A stretch of 64,000 nucleotides of DNA from Nitrospirales bacterium (GCA_022828225.1 JAJEJG010000004.1:39605-103604), one strand, 5' to 3'; shown: positions 44,543 to 52,234, numbered from the stretch's first letter. Notes: generated by a model not told the origin, from the letters alone. Numbers and translations are program-made.

Positions 44543-45463
44543 TCATCGACTTCCCACTCGGTCACGATAGACCGACAGATAAACGGTATCGGCTTTCTTC
44601 CGGCTCCACGGGAACCGGTAGAGGATCCGGATTTGACTCGAATACTGTCCGATGTTCGCCCGTTGCCAGAGCCCCTTTTCAAAATATCGCCGGCCCTCCT
44701 GCTCCCTCAGGAATCCCGCAACCCGGTCTTCCGCAAAAAAATCCACGGCCCAACTGTTCGTCCACGTCGGTTGACATTGCCGAACGTAGTCATCCACTTG
44801 GTAGAGCAGGGCTTGCACCTGGGCCAGGTCGGTCATCACGGACTCAATGGTGCGGAGGAACAGCACTTCATGCCCTTGGGGAACGTCGATGAGGCCGATC
44901 GCGTCTTCCAATTGCCTGCAAGCCGGTTCATCTATGGCATACACGTCCGGCCTACCCGGATCGTCTTGCGGGATGACGATGGTCCGAGAAGCATCCTCCC
45001 GGCACATGAGGTGTAAAGAAGGATGGACGCACTCCCATTCAAGCCGGACTCCGAACGACCTGACGTCCTCCAATAACGTCGGCATCCGCTGGTTCAGGAC
45101 CAGCTTGCCTTGAACCGACTCACCCGGGACCAGCCGGATACCCTGCGATCCAAACTTGCCGGGAAACGAGTCCTGTTGCATGTGGCTCCGTTGCGCATCC
45201 ATTCGAAACGCCGAGAGCCACCCGGCGTCATTCGGGGGCAGCCAGGGCAAATCCCGGAGATTCACGGTGACGGGTTCAGGGTTGGCATTGGTCAAATGGA
45301 CGTGAATTTCGTAAACCCGCTCCTCGGGTTTCTTCAGAAATACCTCCATGGCCAATGTCACACGGGAGTCCAAATCAAGTTCCGCGGCCTGACCGGTCGA
45401 GGCGGATGAACCGCCCGGCAACCACAGGAAAAACCCGAATAAAGCGCACAGCACCCGTTTCAT
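44543..45463 (-). CDS. hypothetical exported protein
   Basis: Signal-peptide-like N-terminus MKRVLCALFGFFLWLPGGSSAS; convergent with 43296..44396. Confidence 0.6.
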   Translation of the reverse strand: MKRVLCALFGFFLWLPGGSSASTGQAAELDLDSRVTLAMEVFLKKPEERVYEIHVHLTNANPEPVTVNLRDLPWLPPNDAGWLSAFRMDAQRSHMQQDSFPGKFGSQGIRLVPGESVQGKLVLNQRMPTLLEDVRSFGVRLEWECVHPSLHLMCREDASRTIVIPQDDPGRPDVYAIDEPACRQLEDAIGLIDVPQGHEVLFLRTIESVMTDLAQVQALLYQVDDYVRQCQPTWTNSWAVDFFAEDRVAGFLREQEGRRYFEKGLWQRANIGQYSSQIRILYRFPWSRKKADTVYLSVYRDRVGSR

Positions 45464-45508
45464 AGTGATACCCAACGCATAGTATATGGCAGTCGATTCT
45501 CTTCTTTC

Positions 45509-45616
45509 CCCTCCTTTGTAAGGAGGGGCCAGGGGAGGTAGAGTTCGCGGCTGGGATGAAAACACCCCCTGCTCTACGGACGGTTGGCTCTACCCCTCCT
45601 ATCCTCCCCTTACAAA
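45509..45616. repeat. paired inverted palindromic repeat, split by the 45617..50362 element
   Basis: CCCCTCCTTTGTAAGGAGGGGCCAGGGGAGGTAGAG ... CTCTACCCCTCCTATCCTCCCCTTACAAA; right half resumes at 50363 (CTTACAAAGGGGAGG). Confidence 0.85.
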
Positions 45617-45950
45617 GGGACTTATATATCAAACTACATATCACAGGAACGCCTTGTCTCGCCTGTGCAGCGCACACTCAAGCTGATGATGGTTTCCGCT
45701 CCCGTCACGACGGAGACCACGGAGAAAGACATGAGCAGAAAAATTGACGGAGCGGACGGGAAAGGTCTTTACTGGATTGGAAAGAGGAGGAAGCTCAGGA
45801 AGGTTGGGCGGGGTTTGGACACCCCGCCCTTCAGAATGTATACGACGAAGTGTTGGATGTTCCGCCGTAGACCATGGTCATTGGTAGACTCCTTTCTTCT
45901 CTTTGATTAAACGTCCAACTTTTTTATCCTACCAACCACACCCGAACACG

Positions 45951-46196
45951 TCAAGAATCAACCCGCTTAATCTCAAACCCTAAGTCTGTTAAGGCTCTCC
46001 GCGCTTTCGCCGGACCAAACGGTTTCTTCGTTTTGGTCGCCAGCCGGATGACTTGTTTGGGTGGGAAATGCTTTCCATGCACGTTGATATAATAAAGTCG
46101 AATGAAGGTTGGCGTCGCCCGGCGTAACACGGCTTTCACATGCGTGTCGGTCAGGCCGTACAGCTTGGTTCCAATGCGAATGGCTGTCCGTTTCAT
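45951..46196 (-). CDS. small conserved protein
   Basis: MKRTAIRIGTKLYGLTDTHVKAVLRRATPTFIRLYYINVHGKHFPPKQVIRLATKTKKPFGPAKARRALTDLGFEI; likely coupled to the upstream ORF. Confidence 0.6.
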   Translation of the reverse strand: MKRTAIRIGTKLYGLTDTHVKAVLRRATPTFIRLYYINVHGKHFPPKQVIRLATKTKKPFGPAKARRALTDLGFEIKRVDS

Positions 46197-46207
46197 GGCG
46201 CCTCCTG

Positions 46208-46534
46208 TCACGGTGCGAATTCAGATGGGACAAAGAGTCTTACGGACCCATTTTCTGTATAGACTCGAATTTCCGTGGTAAAGAATCCTTTGTCCACAAT
46301 CGAATAGGATCTCCCTGTAATAAAAAAGCACAAGCCAGAGGACATCAATTCCTGACCATGTCGTCTATCCTTGTTATTAGCTGCGGTTACAAATTCATCC
46401 AGAGCAGATTCACTGATACAACCTACCGCCCCTTTTGTTTGAATGGTTTTTGTGTTGTCCGCGAGCGCAACATGGCTTCCTGTTGGAATGATGATCAGAA
46501 CACACAAAACCACGGCAAGTACGAACGTTCTCAT
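46208..46534 (-). CDS. small exported hypothetical protein
   Basis: Signal peptide MRTFVLAVVLCVLIIIPTGSHVALA. Confidence 0.6.
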   Translation of the reverse strand: MRTFVLAVVLCVLIIIPTGSHVALADNTKTIQTKGAVGCISESALDEFVTAANNKDRRHGQELMSSGLCFFITGRSYSIVDKGFFTTEIRVYTENGSVRLFVPSEFAP

Positions 46535-46569
46535 AACACTCTCCTCCTACTGGGAAGGTTTGCAATTGT

Positions 46570-46734
46570 CCCGACGCAGATAAACGTCGGGCCGTCCTGT
46601 CCCAACAGGCAAGAGACTTCCTGCGTATTTACCTTTTGAAATGATCGGGAACGGATGGGCGCGACCCATCAGAGGCCCCGATCAGGCTGTTATATTTCAC
46701 AGGCAACCCGACAAGGGCCGACCTGTTGGGACAG
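46570..46734. other. candidate structured RNA/DNA region: nested inverted repeats
   Basis: CTGTCCCAACAGG (46597-46609) pairs with CCTGTTGGGACAG (46722-46734); inside it TGATCGGG (46642-46649)/CCCGATCA (46677-46684) and GATGGG-cgcga-CCCATC (46654-46670); adjacent hairpin CCCGACG/CGTCGGG (46570-46591). Confidence 0.55.
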
Positions 46735-46955
46735 TGAGGAGAGGATACTGAAATTAATCAAACTTCACAAGAGAGGGCTTTGACGAGCGACCGGCAGGAT
46801 AGTATGAGGAGTGGGCAGGAATCCCTCTGCGTCGCAGACATTGGAACGTCTGATGTTCGAGAGCCGGAAATCGAATCGCCCACGCTTGCCTCACACCACT
46901 CCGTTTGTGTTATCCTCCCTCATGGTATTCAACACTGTTATGGAACACTGTCATG

Positions 46956-47340
46956 TTGACTTCCCTTATGGCGTGGTGTACAATTTCGACAATTTTGCGT
47001 ACCCACACCATTACACGAGGAGAATCCATGCGCATCCACATCCAATCCGGCGTTCCTGTTGGTGGGCCTTAGCAGCGCCCACTTTGACACTCGAGACACA
47101 AATAAAACTCCTCAAGTGGGTGGCAGTCCAAATCAAAGGACTGTGTGGCAACATTCCGTCGGCAACGCACACAACGTGGCTGTGTCGGAATGTGTGGCGG
47201 TTGATACTCTTCTGGAAACGAAAAGCTCGCGTTCATTGTGAACTCCCTTTCTCTCCCGTCTAGGAGATTTGCGTTTATGATGGCTGTGAGCTGAGGCCCC
47301 GCCGGGTCCCCACGACCCGGCGGAGGCCGCCTTTTAGGGT
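46956..47340 (+). ncRNA. candidate structured transcript with its own promoter, a 14-codon leader ORF and a terminator
   Basis: TTGACT-N17-TACAAT (46956-46984); SD AGGAGA and ATG at 47028 (MRIHIQSGVPVGGP*); hairpins 47088/47120, 47124/47143, 47151/47193; terminator hairpin CCGCCGGGTC/GACCCGGCGG (47299-47323) then CCTTTT. Confidence 0.45.
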
Positions 47341-47399
47341 TCTTCTGTCATACGCCTTCGATTCGATTTTGTCAACGCGTGGTCCTTCTGTCGTCCCAA

Positions 47400-47437
47400 A
47401 AACAAAAGCCTACGGCAACGTCGCGCTACCGTAGGCC
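47400..47437 (-). terminator. terminator for transposase gene
   Basis: On minus strand GCCTACGG-N13-CCGTAGGC-TTTTGTTTTT. Confidence 0.75.
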
Positions 47438-47527
47438 GTTTGGTGCTTCGCACTCGGCGCCGAGCATACCAAGTTCTTGGCAAAAAATCAAGACCTCAGT
47501 GACTTTTCTCGAAGGCAGGAAGGCCCG

Positions 47528-48478
47528 TCACGCCACCCAACGGGATCTGTTTTTGGATTTGCCGGTGAGAACAGCATACGGCAAATGAACGTTGACGCAG
47601 CGACGGCACAAGGCCTCCAGGCGATCCAAGACGTGTTCGGACACACGGCCCTCGGACAAGCGGAAGGTGGCTTCGGCGAGGTAACGGGGCAGGTGTTTCC
47701 GGCTGACGTGATGGTGCGTGCCCATGAGGGAACGTTTGAACACGGCCCACACGCTTTCGATGCTATTGGTATGCACCAGCCCTCGAACGTACTCATGGGC
47801 CTGATGGTTGACGGTGCCGTGCCCATACCCTGAGGCCGCTAGGCCGGCATAGCCCGCATGTTCATCCGTGAACACGGCACTTCCTCGTTGGACGCGTCGG
47901 CGAATCTCCGGTTGGAGGGTATCCCGCCGGGTATCGGCCACCACCATAGCCCGGGTCGGCCCACCCCGTTCCCGCATCCCGAGGACGATGGTTTTATCGG
48001 CCCCGCCGACGGGGAACCGCTGGCCTTTCTTGCGATGCTTGTTCTTGGCCTTGCCCCCGATATAGGTTTCGTCCACTTCAATCGCCCCGGACAGGGGCTG
48101 GGGATCGGCTCGGCACGCTTCCTTCAACCGATGGACGAGATGCCACGTGGCCTTTTGGGTGAGACCGAGTTCCTTCGACAGTTGCAGGGACGAGACGCCT
48201 TTGCGGGCGACCACGACTTTGTACATCGCGTGCAGCCACACACGGACGGGGAGCGGGCTGGCTTGCAAGACGGTGCCGAACTTGGCGGAGAACTGTTTCC
48301 GGCAGACCCGGCACCGATAGAAGAACGGATGGCCCGACTTCGGGACCACGTCGGCGCTCTGGCAGACCGGACACGTGGGGCCAGTCGGCCATCGGATGGA
48401 TTCAAAGAACTCGACGGCGGCCGCTTCCGTCGCAAACAGGGCAAACAAGTCCCGTTCACTGATCGTGACTGAACACAT
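47528..48478 (-). CDS. IS1595-family transposase
   Basis: N-terminal zinc ribbon (CPVCQSADV...YRCRVCRKQFSAKFGTVL), DDE-type core IEVDETYIGGKAKNKHRKKG ... VFTDEHAGYAGL ... HTNSIESVWAVFKRSLMGTHHHVS. Confidence 0.92.
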   Translation of the reverse strand: MCSVTISERDLFALFATEAAAVEFFESIRWPTGPTCPVCQSADVVPKSGHPFFYRCRVCRKQFSAKFGTVLQASPLPVRVWLHAMYKVVVARKGVSSLQLSKELGLTQKATWHLVHRLKEACRADPQPLSGAIEVDETYIGGKAKNKHRKKGQRFPVGGADKTIVLGMRERGGPTRAMVVADTRRDTLQPEIRRRVQRGSAVFTDEHAGYAGLAASGYGHGTVNHQAHEYVRGLVHTNSIESVWAVFKRSLMGTHHHVSRKHLPRYLAEATFRLSEGRVSEHVLDRLEALCRRCVNVHLPYAVLTGKSKNRSRWVA

Positions 48479-48735
48479 CGCGCACCTCCAGATGATAGGG
48501 TTGATAAACCCCTATTGTATGGAGGTCGTCACCCCCAGACAAGCAGGATGATAAGCCGTGGGGAGGGAGGATTCAGAGGCGGGTTTTGATCCTGCGACGC
48601 TTGTGTTCCCCTTTTGGTCCCATATACTCTGTAAGAAGAAAGGAAGCACACGGACTTCTGCCGATTGACGGGGAACCAAGCCCATGCCACAATGCTGGCT
48701 TGCTGGCTTATTCATTCTTCCAGAAAGGATTCACC

Positions 48736-48789
48736 ATGACTACAACGTCTCGTGTCACCTTTAACTTTTACGCTGAGGGTGCACTATGA
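48736..48789 (+). CDS. 17-aa leader ORF overlapping the next start (ATGA)
   Basis: SD-like AGAAAGGA, then MTTTSRVTFNFYAEGAL*; stop overlaps ATG at 48786. Confidence 0.4.
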   Translation: MTTTSRVTFNFYAEGAL

Positions 48790-49094
48790 GCGATCAAGTC
48801 CCACCATCTGACCCAAAGTTTACTGAACAAACAGTCCCTCTCAATGCCCCGATTCCACAAATCTATATGAATGGGTTCGAGGTAAGTCTTTCGTTATCCG
48901 ATTTCAGCATCACGCTGATGGCCCATGATCGCCAACTGGCGTATTTACTCATGTCCTTCAGTACGGCAAAAACCTTGTCCGAAAGTCTCACGCAAGCCGT
49001 CCAAACGCTTGAGAAAACAACCAGTCGGGAGATTATGACCATGAATGATGTCAGACAGGCGATAGACTCGAAGCGCGAAAGCCCAGCCTCATGA
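48786..49094 (+). CDS. DUF3467-like small protein
   Basis: IPQIYMNGFEVSLSLSDFSITLMAHDRQLAYLLMSFSTAKTLSESLTQAVQTLE. Confidence 0.65.
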   Translation: MSDQVPPSDPKFTEQTVPLNAPIPQIYMNGFEVSLSLSDFSITLMAHDRQLAYLLMSFSTAKTLSESLTQAVQTLEKTTSREIMTMNDVRQAIDSKRESPAS

Positions 49095-49534
49095 ATACTT
49101 CAACTTACAAAGGTTGGCCTGTAGGGGTAGAGGTGGGATTGAATTGCTTAACGCGAGCCCCGGCGCTCAGCTTCCTAAACATTCCACGTCGGGTAAGTCA
49201 CGGAGTGCAGGATTATATTTTGCGAATTCACGAATCGAAAAGGTACCGTCTGGTGGCGAGGCCTTCGTTTATTACGGCCTTGCCGGAGGCCCCCTATTCG
49301 CTTCGAGTGCCGATCCCTATTCTCTTGGAAGCCTTAGAATCAGGAGGATGGATTGCCACGTTCGATGAAGCGAATATCGCTATGATTGGCGAAACGCCAG
49401 AGGAAGCCAAAGAGTTGCTCTCTTACAATATCGTCGATGCCATTGAATTATTTTATTCACATGAAGAAGCGTTGGTACCTGATCTCAGACAGACCTTAGA
49501 GATCCTTCTTCGCTATATCGAGCCGTCAACATGA
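49091..49534 (+). CDS. HicB-like antitoxin-type protein
   Basis: GGWIATFDEANIAMIGETPEEAKELLSYNIVDAIELFYSHEE; precedes HicA-like ORF; ATGA overlaps. Confidence 0.6.
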   Translation: MNTSTYKGWPVGVEVGLNCLTRAPALSFLNIPRRVSHGVQDYILRIHESKRYRLVARPSFITALPEAPYSLRVPIPILLEALESGGWIATFDEANIAMIGETPEEAKELLSYNIVDAIELFYSHEEALVPDLRQTLEILLRYIEPST

Positions 49535-49839
49535 AAATTTTCACGCAAGCTGATGCTCGTAAAATTGCCAAAAAACTCGGGGCCACCATTGAAAAAGGGA
49601 GTAGACACGACAAGGTCAAGGTCAAATATCAAGGTCGCGTGGTTGGGTTTTATGGGATCAGGCGATCGAGTCGAGAGATTGATCACGCACACATTACTAA
49701 ACAGCTTCATATCTCAAGGGCGGCAGCACGTGGGCTGGCTGACTGCCCGGTGAGTAAAGCCGAATACTTTGACATGATGCGAGCGATAGGAAAGATCCCG
49801 AGAGGAGAGGAGGACAGCCCATGCCTGCCACACTCGTGA
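49531..49839 (+). CDS. HicA-like toxin-type protein
   Basis: TQADARKIAKKLGATIEKGSRHDKVKVKYQGRVVGFYGIRRSSREIDHAHITKQLHIS; GSRH aligns with the HicA catalytic-His loop. Confidence 0.65.
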   Translation: MKIFTQADARKIAKKLGATIEKGSRHDKVKVKYQGRVVGFYGIRRSSREIDHAHITKQLHISRAAARGLADCPVSKAEYFDMMRAIGKIPRGEEDSPCLPHS

Positions 49840-50093
49840 CCTATGACTTACACAAAGAAAAATCTGATTCCGACCGGGCCGCGATTCGACAAGCCATAAA
49901 AACCATCGGGAGTTGGGCTCGACTATCCGAATCATCGTATGCTGTCAGTACCTTTTTGTCGCCAGGCGAAATTCATGGCAAGCTAAGGCCCTATCTTGAC
50001 GACAATGACCATATTTATATTATCAGGCTCACTCAGCCGCATAGCGGGTTTGGGCCCACAGACGTTAACGAATGGCTTCGGTATAACTTATAG
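49821..50093 (+). CDS. Cas2/VapD-like ferredoxin-fold small protein
   Basis: MPATLVTYDLHKEKSDSDRAAIRQAIKTIGSWARLSESSYAVSTFLSPGEIHGKLRPYLDDNDHIYIIRL. Confidence 0.6.
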   Translation: MPATLVTYDLHKEKSDSDRAAIRQAIKTIGSWARLSESSYAVSTFLSPGEIHGKLRPYLDDNDHIYIIRLTQPHSGFGPTDVNEWLRYNL

Positions 50094-50506
50094 CTCACCG
50101 CCACACCTACAAAGACCAACCTCGTTACGTCACACGACCTGGTCCTGTGCCATCCTTTTGGGCTTCCTCCTCTTTCCAATCCAATTAAAGACCCTTTCCT
50201 CCTAACGGCCAACAGGGTCAAGAGTCGTGTTCGGCCACCCCTGGATTCAACCGAAAACCAACCCTGAGAAGGACGAGCGGACCAGAGGACGGGAAAAACA
50301 CACAACGGGGCAGAAATCGGGACGGCCCAGTGACCTGATGTGTAGTTTGATATATAAGTCCCCTTACAAAGGGGAGGACACCTGCCTTCAACGCTGAAGA
50401 CCCGTGACCTTATACGCCTTCTTTCCACGTTTCTTGCCGCTATGGTACATTAAAAAGAGAAGACTCGCGCAAAAATCTTCACCCTGCATGGAGCAGGCTT
50501 TCTTTC

Positions 50507-52234
50507 ATGAATAAACGTTCTGTCACAGCATCTTTCGAGTGCTCCCTCGCAGTCATGTTCTGCGTCATGCTTTTCTCGGCCGCAACAACCCAGGCGTTGG
50601 CCGGCGAGCCACGAGCCGAAGCGATTGACGAGATCGCCGAACTTGCGGAAGCCGAGTGGCTGGACGGCAACCCCAGCCAGGCATTGCACATTCTCAACCC
50701 TGGGCTGCAAGACCATCCGACGACCGTCAAGTTGCAAAAATTGCGTGCGGATATTCTATCCACGGCGTCCCGTCGTCACCAGGAAGCCATTGAAGCCTAT
50801 GACGTGATTCTCGACGCGCACCCGGATTCCTTGGAAGTCCGCTGGGCCAAATGGAGCGTATTGCTCCGGGCGGGCCAACAGGATCAGGCCATAGCCGAAT
50901 TTCAACGGCTCGCGCAACTGGATGCGAACAATCCCATTGTCGCGCTCAGGCTGGCCCAGGAACTCCGCAAAGTCGATCGCCTGGAGGAATCCCTGGAGTG
51001 GTATGAAAAAGCCGTGGACATGATTCCGGACATGGTGGGGTGGCGGTTGGCGCTCGCCCGGGCCAAGCTGGACGTCCTGGATGGCCGCGGGGCGCGAGAC
51101 GAAGTCGAACACGTACTGCGAACCGTCGAACCCGGCTCTCCCGAAGAAGCGGCCGCCCACAGCTTACGGTCCGTGATCTACGGGGCCACCAAAGAGCGGG
51201 GCCGGCGCTTCGAACCGATCCTGAGCCCCGGCGGGACCGCAGCGGAACGCAAAGCCTGGTCCGCCATGCGCGCGGACGCATGGCGGCTCTTCGACGCGGG
51301 GCGCTATGCGGAAGTCGAGCCGATCTATCGCAAGCTTCTGGCCCTCAAACCCGACGATTACGCCGCGACGCATGAACTCGGGATGACCTTATTGGGGTTG
51401 GAACGGTGCGATGAAGCGATCAAAATCTTTGAAAGCATGTCCGGGATGAACCCGTCCGACGAAGTCTACGCGGACGCGTTTTTCCGGATCGGCCGCTGCC
51501 TGATGAAGATGGAAAAATGGACGGAAGCCCTCGCCTATTTTGAAATCCTGTATGACGCCGCCCTCGAATTCGATGAACAAACCAAGGAGGTCCCGCCCAA
51601 GGCCGACCTCCGGGTGCTGAACACGGAAACCATCGCCATGTGGCTCAAACGGGTGAAGAAACACATTCCCGCGGATGCGATGCCGAAACAGAATCCGTTG
51701 CTTCCCGCAGTCGATCCCAACGCCCCGGTCCCGATGACCGAAGAAGAGCTGTATCACAAAATAGCAACGGACCGGCTGAACCCCGCACAACAGATCTATA
51801 CGCGGGCGTCCCTGATGGGGCGGGATTCCGATTTCAGCATGTTTCGTTACGTTATTCCGGCCAATCGCGTCATGCGTGACGATCGCCCCACCGGCACCCA
51901 TGAGTTTATCCCGATTGAGCCGCACGATACGTTTCCGAACACGCAGGATGAAATTTATCTGATGTTCGGACTCGTGACCGCCTCCTATGACGAGATGCCG
52001 CTCAGCGTCGAATGTTTTCTCGAGACGCCAAAATCGAACGCGAACCAGATACCGTTGGCCCGGGACCAGGTCATCATGAACATGGGCGACCAGACCGGAT
52101 ACTTCATCATCACCCGGCCTGAATCAGGATGGACACCCGGACTCCACCGGTGCGGGTTATACGTCGGCAGTGAACTCTCGGCCTACACGCATTCGGACGA
52201 AATCCGGTTCCGCGTCATTCCCGAAACTTCGTGA
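50507..52234 (+). CDS. TPR-repeat exported protein
   Basis: Multiple TPR-like motifs (EAIEAYDVILDAHPDSLEVRWAKWSVLLRAGQQDQAIAEFQRL). Confidence 0.8.
   Translation: MNKRSVTASFECSLAVMFCVMLFSAATTQALAGEPRAEAIDEIAELAEAEWLDGNPSQALHILNPGLQDHPTTVKLQKLRADILSTASRRHQEAIEAYDVILDAHPDSLEVRWAKWSVLLRAGQQDQAIAEFQRLAQLDANNPIVALRLAQELRKVDRLEESLEWYEKAVDMIPDMVGWRLALARAKLDVLDGRGARDEVEHVLRTVEPGSPEEAAAHSLRSVIYGATKERGRRFEPILSPGGTAAERKAWSAMRADAWRLFDAGRYAEVEPIYRKLLALKPDDYAATHELGMTLLGLERCDEAIKIFESMSGMNPSDEVYADAFFRIGRCLMKMEKWTEALAYFEILYDAALEFDEQTKEVPPKADLRVLNTETIAMWLKRVKKHIPADAMPKQNPLLPAVDPNAPVPMTEEELYHKIATDRLNPAQQIYTRASLMGRDSDFSMFRYVIPANRVMRDDRPTGTHEFIPIEPHDTFPNTQDEIYLMFGLVTASYDEMPLSVECFLETPKSNANQIPLARDQVIMNMGDQTGYFIITRPESGWTPGLHRCGLYVGSELSAYTHSDEIRFRVIPETS

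Follow-up and report, generated by a model that had tools for sequence, protein, structure and literature searches.

Why does a transposon with several passenger genes sit in the exact centre of a short palindrome? The question arises in a 64,000-nucleotide stretch of DNA from a Nitrospirales bacterium (GCA_022828225.1 JAJEJG010000004.1:39605-103604; hereafter the window, with positions counted from its first letter). An initial annotation, made from the sequence alone, had described an IS1595-type element with passengers and had noted that its removal restores a palindromic repeat, which it left uninterpreted. We found that this palindrome belongs to a repeat present in many copies, which resembles the repetitive extragenic palindromic (REP) sequences, and that its centre is a recurrent target of such elements. 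The element itself is of a known kind; its recurrent landing in REP-like loops sets it apart.

We delimited the IS1595-family unit at 45617-50362 (4746 bp, 4.7 kb). Its two terminal inverted repeats (TIRs), identified as an inverted-repeat match, are 27 nt long: the left one, GGGACTTATATATCAAACTACATATCA, lies at 45617-45643 on the plus strand and the right one at 50336-50362 on the minus strand, and they agree at 26/27 positions, with the one mismatch noted before. Exact copies of the octamer CTTACAAA flank both ends (45609-45616 and 50363-50370). When we scanned around the transposase gene for TIRs with 8-bp duplications, this pair of ends scored 24/25 matches; the sole competing candidate in the window reached 16/25, with a 7-bp duplication. 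The annotated subterminal inverted repeat was also recovered, with its left arm at 45761-45794 (plus strand) and its right arm at 50162-50197 (minus strand), which match at 90% over 30 nt. Across 14 genus genomes its exact form occurs in two places only, both in this element, and two further matches have 3 mismatches each. Candidate roles for this repeat are transposase binding, regulation, or the trace of an older nested insertion.

The only transposase between the TIRs is of the IS1595 type, as first described. Its gene is intact and encodes 316 aa (47528-48478, minus strand). The protein matches the ISXO2-like DDE domain DDE_Tnp_IS1595 of Pfam (PF12762, 2e-44) and the NCBIfam model transpos_IS1595 (NF033547, 8e-56, 189 bits for a cut-off of 75), and it has an N-terminal zinc ribbon (PF12760, 1.6e-10). 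In an alignment of 13 relatives, the four zinc-ribbon cysteines are invariant, as are D136, D205, N238, E241 and K248, which we take to be the catalytic columns. Transposition of the unit would depend on the transposase that it encodes.

Removing the element and one CTTACAAA does restore an intact palindrome, ATCCTCCCCTTACAAAGGGGAGGAC, which reads CCTCCCC-TT-ACA-AA-GGGGAGG and has a 9-bp stem and a 3-nt loop. The insertion splits this unit in its exact centre, leaving the head and left arm at 45588-45616 and the right arm, GGGGAGG, at 50371-50377 (both plus strand). An unoccupied partner unit at 45508-45543 (minus strand) forms an inverted pair with it, similar to a bacterial interspersed mosaic element (BIME), and the site is intergenic. 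The 2.36-Mb genome contains 101 copies of the ATCCTCCCCTTACAAAGGGGAGGAC subtype at ≤2 mismatches, against 0 for a reversed control, and the palindrome was found in 12 of 14 genus genomes. The consensus of 30 copies has a head, CTCTACCCC, and many units are arranged in BIME-like fashion, each paired in inverted orientation with a unit of another subtype, CCCCTCCTTTGTAAGGAGGGG. Both subtypes together reached 43 in a 464-kb sample (~1 per 11 kb), a density that extrapolates to ~219 in the whole genome; counting arms around an even centre undercounts them, the centre of the stem-loop being odd. We call these repeats REP-like because no Y1 transposase of the REP-associated tyrosine transposase type (RAYT, PF01797) was detected in the genome (G000), with a profile that was positive in five control genomes.

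Are other elements found at the same place? All three elements found with these ends in this genome lie at a REP centre and are flanked by the same octamer, CTTACAAA: the window element, L038 (2841 bp) and L084 (538 bp). L038 encodes a different transposase, with 43% identity, and L084 has no IS1595 transposase. Five REP-centre elements were found in three congeneric genomes: L035, L036 and L037 in G197, L083 in G227 and L081 in G077. L083 (555 bp) has no transposase, and L081 (about 697 bp) has a duplication one base off CTTACAAA. The small GGGA-ended elements (L084:8393-8930, L083:7782-8336 and L081:9467-10163), none with an IS1595 transposase, look like non-autonomous relatives; L084 seems by eye to hold a membrane-protein-like open reading frame (ORF).

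The five transposase-bearing elements at REP centres were found through protein similarity, in a search blind to the target. Interrupted REPs were sought by a junction pattern only, anchored on TTACAAA, and this search yielded the small elements: they show that such elements exist and are not independent evidence of a preference. With uniform insertion and ~219 REPs in 2.36 Mb, one insertion would fall in the exact REP register with a chance of ~9e-5. Since this chance applies to each of the five transposase-bearing elements, which occur in two genomes, their recurrence is not due to chance, even with a generous intergenic bias. Nor is it a single inherited insertion, because the elements span two well-separated transposase clades. 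In this genus, REP loops seem to act as landing pads for gene-carrying transposons.

Is the whole unit mobile, as the initial annotation had argued, or the transposase gene alone? An alignment-based search of genome contigs gave 569 stretches encoding relatives of the transposase; the single transposase sequence found none. Together with local relatives from the genus and phylum, these gave 80 bounded elements from many phyla with matching TIRs and 8-bp duplications. One further candidate, L142, was dropped as an inverted duplication around a palindromic octamer. The bounded units range from 1457 to 5338 bp, with a median of 2.45 kb; just four are shorter than 1.5 kb, and all exceed the length of the gene. 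Among the relatives we found no ~1-kb IS (insertion sequence) with short TIRs hugging the transposase gene, the shortest units being 1457-1459 bp. These shortest units (L148, L152, L165 and L166) are closely similar, cargo-poor IS1595-relative copies in one genome, that of the uncultured gammaproteobacterium CATOTD, and apparently represent a recent expansion. Relatives from the same genus and phylum form units of 2.0-3.6 kb with 8-bp duplications and TIRs that start with GGGAnTTATATA or similar, a start common to the window TIR, and cargo varies from one element to the next. IS1595 relatives do make 8-bp duplications and some carry passengers, as the initial annotation had stated for the family. 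Neither of the two outcomes that it had named as refuting its view was observed.

The locus without the element agrees with this. The left (44543-45463, minus strand) and right (50507-52234, plus strand) flanking genes adjoin in 10 of 13 congeners with a gap of about 150-520 nt. An intact REP pair lies in this gap in one of the 10, and in an eleventh congener an intact REP lies upstream of the right-hand gene. Bounded relatives, differing cargo and the element-free locus all support the view that the passengers move with the unit. The search for other copies that had been suggested was successful in part: it gave relatives with other cargo and no second copy of the window TIR in its own genome at ≤3 mismatches.

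Elements of this subgroup also use palindromes outside the genus. L149 (Chloroflexota) is inserted in the palindrome CCCCCTTTCTAAAGGGGG, which has 73 matches in its 1.6-Mb genome. L182 (Fimbriimonadaceae, Armatimonadota) is inserted in CCTCCCCAATTCTGGGGAGG, which has 56 matches at ≤3 mismatches in its genome, some sites being counted on both strands. On a tree of 68 transposases, the state must switch between landing in REPs and landing elsewhere four times or more, and by this tree REP-landing elements occur in at least four transposase lineages from three phyla. Duplications at 72 further targets are AT-rich. Symmetry at positions 1-3 outside the duplication (42/46/40%) is above that of flanking DNA, and the mean dyad arm (2.57 versus 2.07) exceeds all 200 null draws.

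Taken together, these results suggest that an autonomous IS1595-family transposon with cargo landed at the REP centre through a preference for an AT-rich octamer within a dyad, an explanation to which we assign a probability of about 0.8. The transposase would act on both 27-nt ends, move all the DNA between them and insert it with an 8-bp stagger, to which the flanking repeats point. Four small plus-strand genes and up to three minus-strand ORFs, all located between the TIRs, would ride as cargo. The landing site is the exact centre of a dispersed REP-like hairpin, here one unit of a BIME-like pair. The simplest reading is that these transposases favour AT-rich octamers that lie in the middle of a dyad, of which REP loops are an abundant version: they would supply ~200 such sites and become preferred landing pads. 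Reading of the dyad by the transposase, as opposed to recognition of the AT-rich octamer, is likely, though short of proof. If it holds, the repeats of a genome could be used to predict target choice, and REPs would offer a safe harbour for cargo such as restriction-modification and toxin-antitoxin-like genes.

Several observations weigh against this explanation. The exact element is present in a single copy in its genome, which gives no sign of recent movement. Five congeneric elements (L040, L041, L043, L049 and L050) lie at unrelated sites, in genomes that mostly have few or no such palindromes, and L227 lies outside a REP though its genome bears REPs. The junction search, being anchored on TTACAAA, biases L081, L083 and L084 towards REP sites. 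The dyad signal is weak in other phyla. Lastly, 42 of 50 sampled CTTACAAA octamers (84%, 464 kb) lie in REP stems, so that the data from this genus could be accounted for by a preference for the octamer and nothing more. The transposon would then be real, and its transposase would recognise only CTTACAAA or any AT-rich 8-mer; REPs would hold most copies and, as they are probably intergenic, insertions there would survive. The AT-rich duplications across the wider subgroup fit this account, as do the A/T-rich 8-bp repeats reported for the IS1016 subgroup (PMC12561309). However, one insertion lies at TTTACAAA within a REP variant, elements in other phyla use REP-like palindromes with quite different centres, and even REP-free targets show a weak dyad symmetry. 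We judge octamer recognition alone to be on the improbable side, while keeping it as a serious competitor.

The junctions themselves allow a different reading. The TIR begins with GGGA, which is similar to the REP arm GGGGAGG, so that both junctions have a 14-nt repeat, CCCCTTACAAAGGG, in common, as if the palindrome were part of the element and REPs were solo ends or excision scars, with no targeting. We rejected this reading as very improbable: relatives with a GGGA start sit at unrelated 8-bp duplications, each REP arm is single and split by the insertion, REPs are far more numerous than elements and have their own CTCTACCCC head, and two REP subtypes are used as targets. Even less credible is that the transposase gene is the only mobile remnant, and that the outer inverted repeats match by chance and are, like the cargo, unrelated to it. 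The gene does lie centrally, 1.9 kb from either end, unlike in most relatives; however, L036, L037 and L038 of the genus also have genes upstream of the transposase, the 26/27 TIR match is accompanied by an exact 8-bp duplication, and GGGAnTTATATA is common to the relatives' ends.

How does targeted, cargo-bearing insertion compare with known systems? An IS with passenger genes is a "transporter IS", for which the IS1595-family source is Siguier, Gagnevin and Chandler 2009 (PMC3129680), represented here through a citing paper. As far as that account extends, the window element shares with transporter IS the transposase family, the 8-bp duplications and passengers unrelated to transposition; it differs in its precise position in the middle of a REP-like palindrome that is present in many copies, and in a cargo that includes a Cas2-like gene and a HicB-like gene together with its partner. 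REP targeting is documented in five families, IS3, IS110, IS4, IS256 and IS5, with ISPsy8, ISPa11, ISPpu9/10, ISRm22, ISRm19, IS1397, ISKpn1 and IS621 as examples (PMC1525189). These elements also insert repeatedly in REP palindromes, whereas the window element belongs to IS1595, makes an 8-bp duplication and has cargo. With at least four transposase lineages in three phyla, IS1595 would join the families that repeatedly land in REP palindromes. We found no paper joining IS1595 with REP targeting in the literature searched, which left out most subscription papers. Tn3-family transposons resemble the window element in holding toxin-antitoxin passengers, with a transposase of another family and with the toxin-antitoxin identity in the window weakly supported (PMC7157771). 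Tn7-like transposons share defence-rich cargo with the relatives of the window element, but the IS1595 elements are far smaller and have a single transposase gene (PMC8649781).

We wondered what the relatives carry. We sampled 30 of them picked by long passenger ORFs, a choice that favours large genes and makes the shares indicative only. The largest passenger was a DNA methyltransferase in 12 of the 30; in 3 others it was a different gene for restriction or phage resistance (RE_NgoFVII_C, GmrSD/HNH and AIPR), so that restriction-modification or phage-resistance genes account for 15/30, in many phyla (L125-L204). By contrast, 10 ORFs that immediately neighbour these elements included none of the restriction/methyltransferase type. 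Within the genus, methyltransferases are the cargo of L036, L037, L041 and L043, that of L036 being assigned through its sequence similarity to L037; L038 has a DUF3800 protein. Such cargo may serve for protection when a new host is entered, or may control transposition through methylation. In another six of the 30, all alphaproteobacterial (L138, L144, L146, L147, L153 and L155), the largest passenger is a P63C-domain protein, as if one cargo type had become fixed in that lineage. A bolder proposal is that a widespread IS1595 subgroup has specialised in defence cargo (DNA methyltransferases, restriction genes and toxin-antitoxin-like pairs), reads the dyad itself and chooses REP centres as safe, reusable sites, with the REP family of any genome as a target. 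We regard this proposal as unlikely; if it held, REP repeats would organise the spread of defence genes by a general route.

The cargo of the window element is made up of ORFs with no similarity to transposases, all between the TIRs. A plus-strand block of four genes (48786-50093) comprises passenger 1 (48786-49094, 102 aa, weakly DUF3467-like, phrog_7919 E 3e-4), passenger 2 (49091-49534, 147 aa), passenger 3 (49531-49839, 102 aa) and passenger 4 (49821-50093, 90 aa), which is Cas2-like (phrog_1090, 1.5e-14) and has relatives in 65 plasmid records. On the minus strand lie an 86-aa ORF with weak SCO5918-family similarity (45951-46211, E 8e-5, below the cut-off), a 108-aa ORF with a probable signal peptide, judged by eye, and a weak phrog_25409 match (46208-46534), and a possible 55-aa ORF with two CxxC pairs that may be due to chance (47069-47236).

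Passengers 2 and 3 form a conserved pair of neighbours, which recurs in two congeners and in one other genome of the order (G276, G197 and G224), and neither gene matched in plasmids. Passenger 2 had no Pfam match; a profile built from three relatives matched only two PDB chains, weakly (E 0.023 and 0.028), both of which are the antitoxin HicB, and the likeness lies in the C-terminal part. Passenger 3, its conserved partner, showed no similarity to HicA and no match in Pfam, PDB or viral contigs. Single-sequence structure models were too poor for use, with a mean predicted local distance difference test score (pLDDT) of 36 for passenger 2 and 50 for passenger 3, and a fold search with the latter model returned nothing. 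Given the weak HicB match and the lack of any similarity to HicA in passenger 3, we treat a HicBA-like toxin-antitoxin pair as a lead and not as a finding, and a HicA-like role for passenger 3 is conjectural. In G197, the pair lies beside an GGGACTTATATA end with AATTAATT adjoining, close to the end of the contig, which makes it a probable passenger of a further element of this type. In G224 (L226/L229, contig C53), the HicB-like gene and its partner adjoin a serine-recombinase-like ORF (L226 2214-2960, judged by eye), which suggests that the pair is carried by different mobile elements.

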